A stretch of DNA of 64,000 nt from positions 1 to 64,000 of the forward strand of contig JABGUL010000006.1 of NCBI GenBank assembly GCA_018646605.1, in the 5' to 3' direction. The stretch comes from Flavobacteriaceae bacterium. Its GTDB lineage: Bacteria; Bacteroidota; Bacteroidia; Flavobacteriales; Flavobacteriaceae. Both the position numbers and the translations under genes were made by a program. Shown one piece after another: positions 23,043 through 38,672 of this stretch (the stretch's first letter is position 1; every line of letters begins with the position of its first letter). The notes below the pieces were generated by a model. That model was not told the DNA's origin, ran no database searches, and was given only the letters and a program-made list of their open reading frames with translations.

Positions 23043-23050
23043 TACTTTTG
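23043..23050 (+). promoter_or_regulatory. -7 promoter element for the GAF gene
   Basis: TACTTTTG is an exact TAnnTTTG match. It lies seven bases before the ATG at 23057, implying a very short or absent leader. No TTTG is seen at -33. Confidence 0.4.
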
Positions 23051-23056
23051 TTGATT

Positions 23057-23542
23057 ATGTATAATGATCGTTTTTCTGAAGTATTTTTATCAATTTCAAA
23101 ACATTTGAAATCAGCTGATCTGCCTATGGTTGATGGTTTAATTTACATCTGTACTGTTTTAAGAAAAACTTTTGACCACTACGACTGGGTGGGTTTTTAT
23201 TTTGCTGATTTAGATAAAAAAATGCTCCATTTAAAAGCGTACTCCGGAAATCCTGTAGAGCATCAACAAATCCCTTTTGGTAAAGGAATATGTGGTCAAG
23301 TTGCAGTTTCCAATCAGAATTTTATCGTTCCTGATGTCAATGCACAGGATAATTATCTTGCATGCAGTATTGATGTTAAATCTGAAATCGTAATTCCTCT
23401 TTTTTTGGAGGGGCAAAATATTGGGCAAATTGATATTGATTCCCATAAAATTAATCCCTTTTGTGACAAAGATGTACAATTGCTAGAGGCAGTTTGTGAT
23501 CTTATTGCAAAAACCTATTCTAAAACACTTTTACAACTTTAA
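23057..23542 (+). CDS. GAF-domain protein, free methionine-(R)-sulfoxide reductase-like
   Basis: I use ATG 23057 (161 residues, MYNDRFSEVF); a TTG nine bases upstream is less likely. The whole protein is one GAF domain. DWVGFYFAD, PFGKGICGQVAV (C79), DVNAQDNYLACSIDVKSEIVIPL (C103) and IGQIDIDSH follow the fRMsr pattern, in which two of three cysteines are conserved. The third family cysteine, expected about ten residues before C79, is not present. It may repair free oxidised methionine in the cytosol or may just bind a ligand. purH starts seven bases later, so the two are co-transcribed. Confidence 0.8.
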   Translation: MYNDRFSEVFLSISKHLKSADLPMVDGLIYICTVLRKTFDHYDWVGFYFADLDKKMLHLKAYSGNPVEHQQIPFGKGICGQVAVSNQNFIVPDVNAQDNYLACSIDVKSEIVIPLFLEGQNIGQIDIDSHKINPFCDKDVQLLEAVCDLIAKTYSKTLLQL

Positions 23543-23549
23543 ATTAAAC

Positions 23550-25073
23550 ATGAATTCCAAAAAAATTAGTTCCGCACTTATCTCTGTATTTGACAAAACA
23601 GGTTTAGAACCACTTATTAAAGCCTTAGTTGCTAATGATGTAACGTTATATTCTACAGGTGGAACAGAGTCTTTTATCCGTGAATTAGGTCATGAGGTAA
23701 ATGCTGTCGAAGATCTAACGGGCTATCCTTCCATATTGGGAGGCCGAGTTAAAACATTACACCCAAAAGTATTCGGAGGTATTTTAAATCGATCATCTTT
23801 GGCGTCAGATCAAACTGAAATTGATCAATATGAAATCCCCTCTTTTGATTTAGTTATTGTAGACTTATATCCCTTTGAAAAAACCGTTGCTGGTAATGCT
23901 TCTGAAAGTGAAATAATTGAAAAAATAGATATCGGTGGGATTGCCTTAATTCGCGCTGCCGCTAAAAACTTTAATGATGTTTTTTGTATCTCAAATAAAG
24001 AAGATTACGCCTCTTTTATAGAGATTTATAATAAGGCGAATGGTGCACCTTCATTGTCCGAAAGAAAGGAATATGCTGTAAAAGCATTTCATACTTCTTC
24101 ACATTATGATACCGCTATTTTCAATCATTTTAATGAAAAAGAAAATCGATTAAAAATAAGTATGGAGTCCTCTAAGAAATTGCGTTATGGAGAAAATCCA
24201 CATCAGCAAGGTTACTTTTTTGGACCTCTTAATGATTTATTAGAACATTTACATGGTAAAGAAATTTCCTACAACAATTTACTTGATATTGATGCAGCTA
24301 TAAATCTAATGCTCGAGTTTTATGATGGAAAGCCAGCTTTTGGGATTTTAAAACACAACAATGCCTGCGGTTTTGCAGTTAGAGATACCTTAACAAATGC
24401 ATACAAAGATGCACTTGCTGGTGATCCTGTATCAGCATTTGGGGGTGTTTTAATTAGCAACAAAATCATAGACCTAGAAACTGCAATAGAAATAAACACT
24501 TTATTCTGTGAAGTAGTTATTGCACCAAATTATGATCCAGAAGCACTTGCTGTATTAAAAGAAAAAAAGAATAGAATCATACTAATTCAAAAAGAAGAAA
24601 AACTTCCAAATCAAACATTAAGAACCTGTTTAAATGGTGTTTTGGTTCAAGATAAAGATTCTAAAACCGATGAAAAAGAAGATTTAACTACGGCGACAAA
24701 GTTACATCCTTCCGCTCCTCAAATAGACGATTTATTGTTTGCTTCTAAATTATGCAAACACACCAAATCAAACACTATTGTTTTAGCTAAGAATCAACAG
24801 TTACTCGCCTCTGGTACAGGACAAACTTCTAGGGTTGATGCCTTGAATCAAGCCATTCATAAAGCAACCAGTTTTGGGTTTGATTTAAAGGGAGCTGCAA
24901 TGGCAAGTGATGCTTTTTTTCCATTCCCTGATTGTGTTGAAATAGCTGACCAAGCAGGAATTAAAGCTGTTATTCAACCCGGAGGGTCAATCAAAGATAA
25001 GTTGTCTATTGATTACTGTGATGCACATAAAATTTCAATGGTTTTTACAGGAATTCGACATTTTAAACATTAA
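23550..25073 (+). CDS. purH: Bifunctional AICAR transformylase / IMP cyclohydrolase
   Basis: The frame extends upstream but the conserved start is MNSKKISSALISVFDKTG at ATG 23550 (507 residues, the normal length). The N-terminal IMP cyclohydrolase (MGS-like) domain includes STGGTESFIRELG, GRVKTLHPKVFGGIL and IGGIALIRAAAKNF. The C-terminal transformylase includes LRYGENPHQ, KHNNACGFA, DPVSAFGG and SDAFFPFPD. It catalyses the last two steps of IMP synthesis. It starts after the GAF gene and is followed 32 bases later by mreB. Confidence 0.97.
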   Translation: MNSKKISSALISVFDKTGLEPLIKALVANDVTLYSTGGTESFIRELGHEVNAVEDLTGYPSILGGRVKTLHPKVFGGILNRSSLASDQTEIDQYEIPSFDLVIVDLYPFEKTVAGNASESEIIEKIDIGGIALIRAAAKNFNDVFCISNKEDYASFIEIYNKANGAPSLSERKEYAVKAFHTSSHYDTAIFNHFNEKENRLKISMESSKKLRYGENPHQQGYFFGPLNDLLEHLHGKEISYNNLLDIDAAINLMLEFYDGKPAFGILKHNNACGFAVRDTLTNAYKDALAGDPVSAFGGVLISNKIIDLETAIEINTLFCEVVIAPNYDPEALAVLKEKKNRIILIQKEEKLPNQTLRTCLNGVLVQDKDSKTDEKEDLTTATKLHPSAPQIDDLLFASKLCKHTKSNTIVLAKNQQLLASGTGQTSRVDALNQAIHKATSFGFDLKGAAMASDAFFPFPDCVEIADQAGIKAVIQPGGSIKDKLSIDYCDAHKISMVFTGIRHFKH

Positions 25074-34967: not shown

Positions 34968-36089
34968 TTGAACTATTATCTCATTTCTGGTGAAGCCTCA
35001 GGTGATCTCCATGGAGCTCATCTTATAAAAGCCCTTAGAAAAATCGATCCAAATGCTCATTTTCGTGCCTGGGGTGGAGACTTGATGGAAAAAGAAGGAG
35101 CAACGATTGTAAAACATTACAGTGAATTAGCCTTCATGGGGTTTTGGGAGGTTATTAGTCACTTACCAACTATAATAAAAAATATAAAAACGTGTAAAAA
35201 GGACATTCTAGCTTTTAGTCCTGACCTAATTATTTATATTGACTATCCTGGATTCAATCTTAGAATAGCAAAATGGGCTAAAGAAATTGGATTTAAAAAC
35301 CATTATTACATCAGTCCTCAGGTGTGGGCATGGAAAGAAAATAGGGTCAATAAGATGAAAAGTATCTTAGATGCGCTTTATGTCATTCTCCCTTTTGAAA
35401 AGGCATTTTTTGAAAAGAAACACAATTTCAAAGTGCATTATGTAGGGCACCCTTTAATGGATCATATCCCAAACCACCCCTTAGATATAAAGTTTCACGA
35501 TAAATTTAATTTAGAATCTGAAAAACCAATTATTGCGCTCCTTCCTGGAAGTAGATTGCAGGAAATAAAAAAAATGTTGCCGCTCTTCATACAAGTAGCA
35601 AATCACTTTCCTAAACATCAATTTGTTATTGCAGGAGCCCCAGGCTTATCTATTGATGACTATACTAACATTATTAAAAACACCAAACTAAAAGTTATCC
35701 ATAACGCCACATATGACCTGCTGCAACACTCAAGTGCAGCCCTTGTAACTAGTGGAACAGCTACTCTAGAAACGGCCTTATTTGATGTGCCTCAGCTGGT
35801 TTGCTATCGCAGCAGTGCTTTAAGCTATTGGATTGCAAAAAAAATAGTGAAGCTGAATTATATTTCTCTTGTCAATTTAATTTTAAATCGGCTTGTCGTT
35901 AAGGAACTTATTCAAGATGAACTAAATTTATCAAACTTGTGCATGCATCTCGAATCAATTTTAGAACCTTTAAATAAAAAACAATTTCTCGATGACTACC
36001 AGGAATTAAAATCAATTCTCGGAAACGGAGGTGCCAGTAAAAAAACAGCTCAGTTGATTTATGATAGAATCACAAGTGAAAAAAATTAA
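34968..36089 (+). CDS. lpxB: Lipid A disaccharide synthase
   Basis: The protein has 373 residues and starts at TTG 34968, since homologues begin xYYxISGEASGDLHGAHL and no ATG is nearby. Motifs include GEASGDLHG, FMGFWEV, DYPGFNLRIAK, YYISPQVWAWKENRV, LPGSRLQEI and SGTATLETAL. It is a GT19 glycosyltransferase that joins UDP-2,3-diacylglucosamine and lipid X at the inner membrane. It follows the small membrane protein gene and precedes comEC by 42 bases. Confidence 0.96.
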   Translation: MNYYLISGEASGDLHGAHLIKALRKIDPNAHFRAWGGDLMEKEGATIVKHYSELAFMGFWEVISHLPTIIKNIKTCKKDILAFSPDLIIYIDYPGFNLRIAKWAKEIGFKNHYYISPQVWAWKENRVNKMKSILDALYVILPFEKAFFEKKHNFKVHYVGHPLMDHIPNHPLDIKFHDKFNLESEKPIIALLPGSRLQEIKKMLPLFIQVANHFPKHQFVIAGAPGLSIDDYTNIIKNTKLKVIHNATYDLLQHSSAALVTSGTATLETALFDVPQLVCYRSSALSYWIAKKIVKLNYISLVNLILNRLVVKELIQDELNLSNLCMHLESILEPLNKKQFLDDYQELKSILGNGGASKKTAQLIYDRITSEKN

Positions 36090-36131: not shown

Positions 36132-36707
36132 ATGCTTTTCCCCAGATCAAGACTTTACCCCTTAGTCGGACTCTTTACTATGGGAGGTGTTTTTTCATTT
36201 TATATTAATTGCGAAACAACCCCTCTATGGATTGGATTAACAGTGCTTATTTTAATGTATTTTTTTATAAAGAAACGGGCAAACAGACTTAATACTAGTT
36301 TGCTGTATTTCAGCTTTTTAATAATGGGCTTACTTCATTTCAAAGAATATTATCGCCTTCCGAAGGCACATTTTCAAAATCATTCAGCACCTAATTCAGA
36401 GGTCTTTAAAAAAATTGAAATTGTCAAACCCTTAGGGGTAAATTCATTTTCATTTTCCTTCATAGGAGAACTTAAACAATGGGGGGATGATAGTGTTATG
36501 GGAAAAATTCTAGTATATCAAACCAGAGATAGTTTGACTCTACCATTCCAAAGGGGTCAGGTAATTCTTACAAAAACGAACTGCTATTCGATTAAATCCA
36601 ATCCAAATCCAGGTGGATTTTCATACAAAGATTATTTAAAAAATATTCGAGTATATCAACAAATTCAAATAGACGGGAAAACCATACTTCACCCAAAAAA
36701 AAAATAA
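36132..36707 (+). CDS. ComEC N-terminal fragment (DUF4131 part)
   Basis: This is the 191-residue open frame before the A10 run. It begins MLFPRSRLYPLVGLF and has two or three helices (to about residue 70) followed by the DUF4131 beta domain. It finishes GKTILHPKKK and the stop directly follows the poly-A. See the joined entry for how it connects to the downstream frame. Confidence 0.7.
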   Translation: MLFPRSRLYPLVGLFTMGGVFSFYINCETTPLWIGLTVLILMYFFIKKRANRLNTSLLYFSFLIMGLLHFKEYYRLPKAHFQNHSAPNSEVFKKIEIVKPLGVNSFSFSFIGELKQWGDDSVMGKILVYQTRDSLTLPFQRGQVILTKTNCYSIKSNPNPGGFSYKDYLKNIRVYQQIQIDGKTILHPKKK

Positions 36708-36793
36708 CGCCTTGGTTTTTTAATGTACTGAAAATCAAAGAAAATGTCGAAATAAAAATAGAACAATCGACAATTTCCAAAGACAGTAAAGGG

Positions 36794-38149
36794 ATGCTTA
36801 TGGCCTTATTGCTAGGAAAACGAAACGCAATAGATGATGAAATACTATCAGCTTACACAAAAGCTGGGGTCATACATCTTCTTGCTTTATCTGGACTTCA
36901 CGTTGGCTTGTTTGTTCTACTTATCATGTTTTTGCTAAAACCGATAACTTCTTTAAAATATGGTAAAACAGTACGCTTTATAATTGTCCTTATTTTTCTT
37001 TGGGGATTTGCTTTTTTTGTTGGTTTATCGCCATCGGTAGTTCGTGCTGTTACGCTTTTTACCTTTGTTGTAATTGGGAGTTATATCAATCAAGGAAAAC
37101 ATAGTTTTCACTATACAGTTCTTTCTTTTTTTATTTTAATAATAGCCTATCCTCCATTTCTAAGAGCAATCGGATTCCAACTAAGTTACCTTGCTGTATT
37201 TGGAATTCTAGGCATCTACCCTTTACTTAAAAAACTTTGGAACCCATCGAATTGGTTTTTAAAAAAAATATGGAATTTAGCAGCCATTTCTATTGCAGCT
37301 CAAATAGCAGTTAGCCCGATTAGCATCTATTATTTTCATCAATTTCCTAGTTTATTTTTATTGAGTAACATAATAATCCTTCCCTTTTTTGGAGCATTCT
37401 TATCTTTAAGCTTAATCATACTCTTTGCTATTCTATTAAATTTTTCCAATCCACTACTTTTCCAATTTTATGATATTGGAGTTGATTGTTTAAATAAAAT
37501 CATCAATTGGGTAGCACAACAAGAGGCATTTCTTTTTGATAACATTTATTACTCTGCTTCCTCAACCTTTTTATTGTATTGCATTATTATTTTAGCTGTA
37601 TTATTTTTTTACAAAAAAACTTTCTTAAAGGGAACGTGGGTTTTGCTCTTTATTTTAGTCTTTATTTCAAACCTTATTTTAGAAGCTAAAAAAGAAAATG
37701 AAATAAATAGTTTTTGGGTATTTCATAAACACAATGAAAGTCTGATGGGACATCAAAAAGGAGGGATCTTATATTATCATACCTCTGATGAAGAAAATAC
37801 AAATCGGCTTCTTTGGGACTTTACAAACTCTCGAAAGCTAAAAGAAAACAGAAGACTTCTTCTCAAAAATATGTATGTGCAAAAGAACTTCAAATTACTC
37901 CTTTTAGAAAACAAACAAATGACTGGCATTAAAGAAATTGCTCCAACCCACATCCTTCTTCAAAAGAATGTTAAATTAAATTTAGAGCTCTTATTTGAAG
38001 AATACAAACCTGACCTTCTCATTGCAGATGGGTCAAATGCTCCTTGGTCTTCTTATCGCTGGGAAAAAACATGTAAGAAATATAAAGTCCCTTTTTATGA
38101 TACTAGAAAAAAGGGGGGCTTAAAAATTAACCTCGGAAACGAGGAATAA
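36794..38149 (+). CDS. ComEC C-terminal fragment (competence channel part)
   Basis: This is the 451-residue frame containing the multi-helix competence channel and a short C-terminal domain that ends PDLLIADGSNAPWSSYRWEKTCKKY, a remnant-like lactamase fold found in Bacteroidetes ComEC. The ATG at 36794 is internal; the frame itself is open from the A10 run and carries conserved residues before this ATG. The 3' end overlaps the convergent thioredoxin-fold gene by 23 bases. Confidence 0.7.
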   Translation: MLMALLLGKRNAIDDEILSAYTKAGVIHLLALSGLHVGLFVLLIMFLLKPITSLKYGKTVRFIIVLIFLWGFAFFVGLSPSVVRAVTLFTFVVIGSYINQGKHSFHYTVLSFFILIIAYPPFLRAIGFQLSYLAVFGILGIYPLLKKLWNPSNWFLKKIWNLAAISIAAQIAVSPISIYYFHQFPSLFLLSNIIILPFFGAFLSLSLIILFAILLNFSNPLLFQFYDIGVDCLNKIINWVAQQEAFLFDNIYYSASSTFLLYCIIILAVLFFYKKTFLKGTWVLLFILVFISNLILEAKKENEINSFWVFHKHNESLMGHQKGGILYYHTSDEENTNRLLWDFTNSRKLKENRRLLLKNMYVQKNFKLLLLENKQMTGIKEIAPTHILLQKNVKLNLELLFEEYKPDLLIADGSNAPWSSYRWEKTCKKYKVPFYDTRKKGGLKINLGNEE

Positions 38150-38672
38150 AACTCTTTTGGTAATTTTGAAAATCCTCTGGTTTTGAAAAAACTTGATAAT
38201 CACCTTGCTTAATCAATTTAAGATACAGCTCCAATTGCTGTGGTTTGAGATAACCAACAACAGGCATTATTGGGTCACCATTTTCACTAAAAAAGACCAT
38301 TGTTGGATATCCCTTGACTCCTAAATATTGAATAAACTGGTGGGTTCCATTTCTACCCTTTCGATTTGGATCATAATTAGGGTTGGTATAGGTTTGGTCA
38401 AAGAACTTGATCTCTTCTTGCCCTTCAGCATTGAACTTAACAGCATAAAAATGTTCACTTATGTAGCGTGAAACATCGGGATTTTGAAACGTATTTTTAT
38501 CCAATAATTTACAGGGGCCACACCAGTCCGTATAGACATCCATAAAGATTTTCTTGGGGGCTATCTTTTGAGCTTCTATTGCTTCTGCAAGAGACATCCA
38601 TTCGATTTGCTGAGCCTGCGTATTTACACTATAAAACGCTACGAGATATAATAAAACAACTTTTATTTTCAT
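38127..38672 (-). CDS. Exported thioredoxin-fold protein
   Basis: The protein has 181 residues: a signal peptide (MKIKVVLLYLVAFYSVNTQAQ), then a thioredoxin fold with an intact active site W50-C51-G-P-C54, the buried acid region MDVYTDW and the cis-proline KGYPTMVFF. It is likely a periplasmic disulfide reductase or thiol oxidoreductase of the DUF255/thioredoxin_7 type. The 3' end overlaps comEC (plus strand). The POT transporter gene lies 13 bases upstream, so it is probably the last gene of a peptidase-transporter operon. Confidence 0.85.
   Translation of the reverse strand: MKIKVVLLYLVAFYSVNTQAQQIEWMSLAEAIEAQKIAPKKIFMDVYTDWCGPCKLLDKNTFQNPDVSRYISEHFYAVKFNAEGQEEIKFFDQTYTNPNYDPNRKGRNGTHQFIQYLGVKGYPTMVFFSENGDPIMPVVGYLKPQQLELYLKLIKQGDYQVFSKPEDFQNYQKSFIPRFRG

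Follow-up and report, generated by a model that had tools for sequence, protein, structure and literature searches.

The window analysed here, i.e. the whole stretch of 64,000 nt, belongs to a genome (G000) of 1.98 Mb that consists of 44 contigs and is 98% complete. The GC content of the window is 33-37% in steps of 4 kb. It contains a comEC gene between an upstream ORF that we take to be LpxB-like (34968..36089, forward strand) and a downstream ORF that is presumably thioredoxin-like (38127..38672, reverse strand), both names being assigned by reading the sequence. The comEC gene lacks one continuous reading frame. Its N-terminal half (36132..36707, forward) starts with the ATG at 36132, encodes 191 aa including the DUF4131 domain, and ends with a TAA stop codon (36705..36707, forward) immediately behind a run of exactly ten As (36695..36704, forward), at which the frame is lost. 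The second frame (36596..38149, forward), which is −1 relative to that of the N-terminal half, is open across the run and free of stops to 38146, its own stop being at 38147-38149. ComEC homology begins in this frame at about 36695, the Competence domain (PF03772) lies at 36806-37615 (forward), and an ATG-started ORF of 451 aa (36794..38149, forward) represents the C-terminal half.

Profile searches identified both domains expected of ComEC, i.e. DUF4131 (PF13567) in the N-terminal half (E 3.6e-18, 66.2 bits, cut-off 31.6) and Competence in the C-terminal half (E 8e-54, 183.2 bits, cut-off 23). With the ComEC/Rec2 equivalog model TIGR00361, the C-terminal half alone reached 99.6 bits at a cut-off of 190.05, a shortfall that may reflect the split or the lineage. 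The broken comEC is the site of the only Competence match at E ≤0.001 in the genome. The linker between the two domains, in which the break sits, is lysine-rich and weakly conserved, and reading of both halves revealed no further stop. The span of 36132-38146 comprises 2015 nt, consistent with 672 residues; the open comEC of the relative G007 encodes 673 aa. The preliminary description had reported a comEC split at ten As, an open second frame with the missing family sequence, a restored length of 672 residues, and halves that are otherwise intact, all of which agrees with these results.

Since synonymous changes between G000 and its relatives approach saturation (dS from about 1.6 upwards), a codon-based age estimate was dropped and nonsynonymous distances were used instead. 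For the C-terminal half, the dN values to three outgroups are 0.42, 0.48, and 0.45 for G000, and 0.42, 0.48, and 0.46 for the open gene of G007. The G000 gene itself shows no sign of relaxed selection, i.e. neither an extra lesion nor faster change. The lack of a second lesion and the dN values matching those of G007 indicate that the break is recent, or that the protein is still used, and the sequence fits both alike. A recent break, as had been suggested beforehand, is probable. With respect to the marks of a pseudogene, we found a disrupted frame in a gene that is under loss in related genomes, and found neither further lesions nor relaxed constraint. The dprA gene (a frame of 361 aa), the comF gene (246 aa), and the gene for a ComEA-like protein with two HHH motifs (278 aa) are all open in G000, as in a still competent cell.

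For comparison, homopolymers were counted. The comEC A10 is the longest homopolymer in the window, which contains 23 A/T runs of length 8, five of length 9, and one of length 10. A/T runs of at least 10 nt occur at 26 separate places in the whole genome, about 0.8 per 64 kb, so that one such run in the window is ordinary. The fraction of window runs of at least 8 nt that lie inside tiled ORFs of at least 100 aa is 24 of 29, and at the level of ORFs, i.e. without homology for each gene, a frame break was found only at the A10 of comEC. Elsewhere in the window, an ORF with a GAF domain (23048-23542) overlaps a purH-like ORF (AICARFT/IMPCHase, 23496-25073) on the same strand by 47 nt; the two belong to different families, and the overlap is probably due to an over-long start call and not to a broken gene. 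Of the 26 genomic runs, 11 overlap an ORF of at least 70 aa and 15 lie outside such ORFs. Five clearly lie in the sense direction within open frames (L081, L082, L083, L093, and L098), while L086, L088, L092, and L100 were set aside as sense-direction T runs or because of doubtful starts. Frame switches at the ORF-overlapping runs were found only in comEC and dnaX, in a comparison by ORF that partly selects intact genes. The in-frame A10 genes, which were found through their intact ORFs, speak weakly against assembly noise.

To place the break within the genus, the comEC locus was located via its landmarks lpxB and thioredoxin in 36 of the 38 genus genomes, G000 included. Left out were G024, without an lpxB or thioredoxin match, and G014, with weak matches (E 7.7e-4 and 1.6e-4), as well as G023, in which both neighbours are at contig ends, leaving 35 resolved loci. 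G034 was counted as a remnant despite neighbours on two contigs and a match of only 33 aa, and the locus of G025 is spread over two overlapping contigs. G036 and G019 were counted as open since their frames are open to the C-terminal ends, despite one stop counted inside the matches. Weak comEC hits inside the thioredoxin gene (G060, G017) and lpxB (G031) were treated as chance.

Only six of the 35 loci have an open comEC (G007, G012, G013, G019, G033, and G036), in each case encoding one continuous chain. Five genes are nearly full-length and broken (G000, G003, G022, G025, and G026), five are remnants (G005, G017, G021, G030, and G034), and at 19 loci lpxB adjoins the thioredoxin gene without a recognisable comEC in between. 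The lesions differ in kind. G022 has a frame switch over T9, G003 has frame switches in both halves as well as further stops, the switch in the C-terminal half not being at a homopolymer, and G025 has three in-frame stops (TGA, TAG, and TAG), none of them at homopolymers. The gene of G026 has a frame break at an A10 in the same linker (L072:808-817, G026:C75), with the opposite direction of shift, so that two of the 11 near-full-length genes are broken in this linker precisely at an A10. The two breaks are explained well enough by hot spots of mutation in the lysine-rich linker of a gene under weak selection; a contingency tract would likewise explain them, and the opposite directions fit either reading. 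None of the six open relatives has a run of at least 8 nt at the break site of G000, and a conserved programmed site in comEC was rejected on these grounds. The linkers of two of them, G012 and G033, contain an A7, which indicates that the stretch is prone to A runs. Within the clade of five to which G000 belongs, only G007 has an open gene, the others having the A10 break (G000), three stops (G025), a deletion remnant (G030), or no gene (G029). If regain is excluded, at least nine losses are required on a FastTree tree of three genes. Ordinary parsimony with regain on an IQ-TREE tree yields five changes for open versus not open, and nine for near-full-length versus not. The genus is repeatedly losing DNA uptake by natural transformation. 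In the part of the literature that our search covered, we found no record of competence loss in marine flavobacteria.

The fractions of genomes with other competence genes were determined for the same 35 genomes. The dprA gene is present in some form in 17, a match in G060 at E 5.6e-4 not being counted, and comF in 16. Each of the 38 genomes gave some match to comF, but none exceeded the curated cut-off; the gene was counted if most of the model was covered or if two pieces lay in neighbouring frames, and short matches to other proteins at about model positions 130-190 were left out. In 18 of the 35 genomes, none of comEC, dprA, and comF left a trace that was counted. The HHH protein (PF12836) shows a loose association with comEC, being encoded in nine of the 11 genomes with near-full-length comEC and in four of the 24 others; G003 (a 503-aa frame) and G005 (below the cut-off, with a stop inside) were not counted, and G036 has an open comEC without an HHH match. 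The relatives are often incomplete MAGs (54-95%), and a missing dprA or comF may in some cases reflect a gap. The losses of comEC are more reliable than these absences, both neighbouring genes having been found. Transformation of Riemerella anatipestifer is reported to require each of comEC, dprA, and comF (PMC8459023).

Fisher tests of co-loss gave p values from 4e-4 to 2e-7, with kinship ignored. When six phylogenetically independent pairs were used, dprA changed in the same way in about 2.6 and comF in 2.8 of them (median p 0.25), the values for the HHH protein were 2.9 versus 1.3, and no co-loss test was significant; with only six pairs, this test is without power. Six genomes (G000, G017, G022, G025, G026, and G032) have a broken or lost comEC together with open dprA and comF, and one has the reverse order, i.e. 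an open comEC and comF with an interrupted dprA (G012; L104 about 666-668, G012:C14). We draw no conclusion on a comEC-first order from six versus one, comEC also being the longest target. Breaks at or beside homopolymers were found in comF of G021 (A8, L220:592-620) and G034 (T7, L221:385-442) and in dprA of G034 (T7, L106:802-820) and G003 (A7), while the dprA breaks of G030 and G005 are away from homopolymers. Breaks at homopolymers are common, and not universal, in the decaying competence genes of this genus.

The dnaX gene of G000 served as an internal control for the behaviour of an A10. It is located at L090 (G000:C18:105000-108000; TIGR02397, 361 bits, cut-off 250) and consists of a 358-aa frame that ends just past an A10 and a 251-aa C-terminal frame that is −1 relative to the first. 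We analysed 32 dnaX sites from the 38 genus genomes, the other genomes being without a dnaX match or, as in G025, having a truncated one. The tract is A10 at 31 of the 32 sites and A11 at one, and the two parts are in different frames at 23 sites and in a single frame at nine. In the wider order, 27 of 29 further loci have A9-A11 at this site, the exceptions being G055 (A8) and G047 (A7). The single A11 is that of G035 (L143, G035:C27), in which both parts are in one frame, and its sister G002 has an A10 and a split gene. This organisation is already known and not new: dnaX genes of two ORFs, in which tau requires recoding, have been reported by Antonov et al., nine of them with 10 As, and transcriptional slippage as at the Thermus A9 was suggested for them (PMC3711429). 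The lineage probably slips on A10 often enough to make an important protein. General assembly noise as the leading cause of the comEC break was rejected, as the dnaX tract is A10 at 31 of 32 sites. The dnaX A10 of G000, at which the frame changes in the same direction as in comEC, makes a comEC leak plausible by analogy, and the proposal of the preliminary description that the comEC A10 is a natural slippage site stands to this extent.

Directly 5′ of the dnaX run is a potential hairpin, CTCCAT-4 nt-ATGGAG (L090:1441-1540, reverse strand; G000:C18 about 106,440-106,540), which was scored at the 32 genus sites (L123-L152, L218, and L219). All six stem pairs form at 25 sites. Two-sided changes that retain a pair were found in G001 (third pair, C-G to T-A) and in G011 (sixth pair, T-A to C-G), and one pair is absent in G012 and in G020. 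Of the 192 stem cells, 176 are paired, versus 74-117 after displacement of the 5′ arm by 1-3 positions. The stem is degraded, with four or two of six pairs, in the clade of G010, G016, G018, G028, and G031, which has dnaX in one frame, while G009, G011, G020, and G035 have a one-frame dnaX and yet keep all or most of the stem. These values have to be read with the caveat that the region is additionally constrained by the conserved peptide that it encodes, and that the sequences scored are those in which the stem was first noticed. Nascent-RNA hairpins are stated to stimulate slippage of the polymerase in a figure legend (PMC5009743, Figure 18), and the dnaX stem is possibly such a hairpin-stimulated slippage site. 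In the part of the literature on two-ORF dnaX and slippage that our search covered, we found no description of this 5′ hairpin.

The folds at the two sites differ in stability. The predicted fold 5′ of the run has −5.8 kcal/mol for dnaX of G000, −2.2 kcal/mol for its comEC, and −0.5 kcal/mol for comEC of G026; the fold at comEC of G000 is bulged and ends one base short of the run. Among the five in-frame A10 genes of G000, four are without a notable fold, the exception being L098 with a stem of six pairs and −3.3 kcal/mol. A stable 5′ hairpin of the dnaX kind is absent before the comEC runs of G000 and G026. No significant fold was predicted downstream of the comEC run of G000 (z −0.19) or in the sequence surrounding it (z −0.10), and a stimulator of ribosomal frameshifting at comEC was rejected on the basis of these values; the same test on dnaX (L090) gave z −1.90 and −2.45. 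By the yardstick of dnaX, the comEC run is nearly bare, and its A10 is predicted to slip less than that of dnaX. The preliminary description had further proposed that DNA uptake is reversibly switched or phase-variable. This part is not supported, as the run is not conserved in the open relatives, the fold before it is weak, comEC is broken, a remnant, or missing at 29 of the 35 resolved loci, and dprA and comF are often missing as well. The slippage reading is retained as far as slippage itself is plausible, and not as reversible control. The loss of comEC at 29 of 35 loci and of dprA and comF in many genomes points to decay.

We consider it probable, although with some reserve, that comEC of G000 carries a true and recent frameshift and represents an early stage in the loss of transformation, which would probably be leaky. 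In this scenario, replication slippage would have altered the A run in the lysine-rich linker, the comEC frame would have been lost, and translation would end right after the run. Most transcripts would yield only the N-terminal 191 aa, and a minority would yield full-length ComEC via slippage of RNA polymerase or the ribosome on the A10, so that DNA uptake would be expected to be reduced rather than absent. The break, the intactness of the two halves, the gene losses in the genus, and the conservation of the dnaX A10 are observed directly. The origin of the tract change in replication and the loss of function are what we infer, and leaky expression of the full-length protein is expected from dnaX and published cases. 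Two reports speak against a strong leak, i.e. an insertion frequency of only 0.39% on an A7 in E. coli (PMC6260861), and a transcript survey that included Buchnera and whose accessible text reports no frame-restoring transcript (PMC5574713). It is also conceivable, if rather doubtful, that efficient slippage on A10, as suggested by the conserved dnaX site, makes frameshifts cheap, and that comEC, with its A10 breaks of opposite direction in two species, is temporarily held in a leaky state of low dose; DNA uptake would then be lost via a stage that resembles a dimmer and not an on/off pseudogene.

The A10 could instead be kept as a functional recoding site or contingency locus, with the amount of ComEC kept low or made variable by slippage, either in transcription or in replication from one generation to the next. 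The dnaX gene of G000, with its A10 and the same switch direction, and the genus-wide values for that site (A10 at 31 of 32, frame-split at 23 of 32) are in agreement with this idea, as are the open genes for DprA, ComF, and the HHH protein, the unaccelerated change of ComEC (dN as in G007), and the close parallel of Citrobacter rodentium tssM1, an A11 for which 20-25% frameshifting was reported (PMC4256274). The second A10 break in the linker of G026 also fits, A/T runs of at least 10 nt within ORFs being few (11 of 26 in G000); however, that break needs the opposite shift, and six open relatives manage without a run of at least 8 nt, so the tract is not conserved. The fold before the run (−2.2 versus −5.8 kcal/mol at dnaX) and the 3′ z value of −0.19 are also unfavourable, and the genus is losing the whole uptake system. 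We regard a maintained recoding site as unlikely.

An error of assembly or consensus, with a real tract of another length and comEC as one open gene, would account for a single homopolymer lesion between clean halves with dN equal to that of an open relative, in a 44-contig assembly known from its consensus alone. Against this, these assemblies agree in the length of the dnaX tract, with A10 at 31 of 32 sites and a lone A11 that is consistent with its frame, which makes a length error in comEC less likely. Moreover, frame switches at ORF-overlapping runs of at least 10 nt are confined to dnaX and comEC in the ORF-based comparison, and most resolved loci of the genus (29 of 35) have a comEC that is broken or missing. 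We regard an error as distinctly improbable. That the gene works as two proteins, a DUF4131 protein and a channel protein started at the ATG at 36794, has in its favour this start codon with its 451-aa ORF and the presence of both domains; but all six open relatives encode one chain, and the only other break in the linker, that of G026, has another arrangement of frames, so that we assign a very low probability to a working split gene. A recent, probably leaky frameshift on the way to loss is the reading that we retain.

Natural transformation is distributed patchily among bacteria, and the stages can be compared within this single genus, i.e. open genes, one frameshift, several lesions, remnants, and clean loss. 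The dnaX gene provides an internal yardstick for the yield of protein past an A10 frameshift, and whether a broken competence gene is truly dead becomes directly measurable. In the accessible part of the literature, no record of slippage or phase variation in comEC was found. Events of this kind are known, and the case adds a new example. The two-ORF dnaX genes with 10 As (PMC3711429) have a tract of identical length, and dnaX of G000 (L090) has the same direction of shift. Like such programmed sites, comEC has a tract in the range of A9-A11. In contrast to the dnaX site of this genus, it lacks the stable 5′ hairpin, a weak fold standing where dnaX has a stable one in most of the genus, and its tract is private, whereas the dnaX tract is conserved throughout the genus and in a large part of the order.

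As in C. rodentium tssM1 (PMC4256274), a long A run shortly precedes a premature stop and the rest of the gene is intact in the shifted frame; at least nine As stand before the stop, and the family sequence continues behind it. Both genes belong to transport machines, and tssM1 is likewise described without a special stimulator near the run (PMC4256274). The stop follows 28 nt behind the run in tssM1 and directly behind it in comEC, and the 20-25% for tssM1 were measured on RNA and protein (PMC4256274), whereas comEC is known here from sequence only. The system of tssM1 works (PMC4256274), whereas comEC belongs to a genus that is losing its system, and the retention of the tract by selection in relatives, by which genes of the tssM1 type are judged, was not found for comEC, the A10 of G026 being shifted in the opposite direction. 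In the endosymbionts Buchnera and Blochmannia, 12-50% of the transcripts of genes frameshifted at poly(A) tracts are reported to be corrected (PMC5009743). These genes resemble comEC in the AT-rich genome, the frameshift at a single tract, and the otherwise intact gene, while G000 differs in its genome of 2 Mb, in not being a known endosymbiont, and in that its comEC was read from the DNA. In Piscirickettsia salmonis, comEC is reported to be likewise broken across a taxon, there by transposable elements (PMC12955456), in contrast to the homopolymer shifts, nonsense mutations, and deletion found here.
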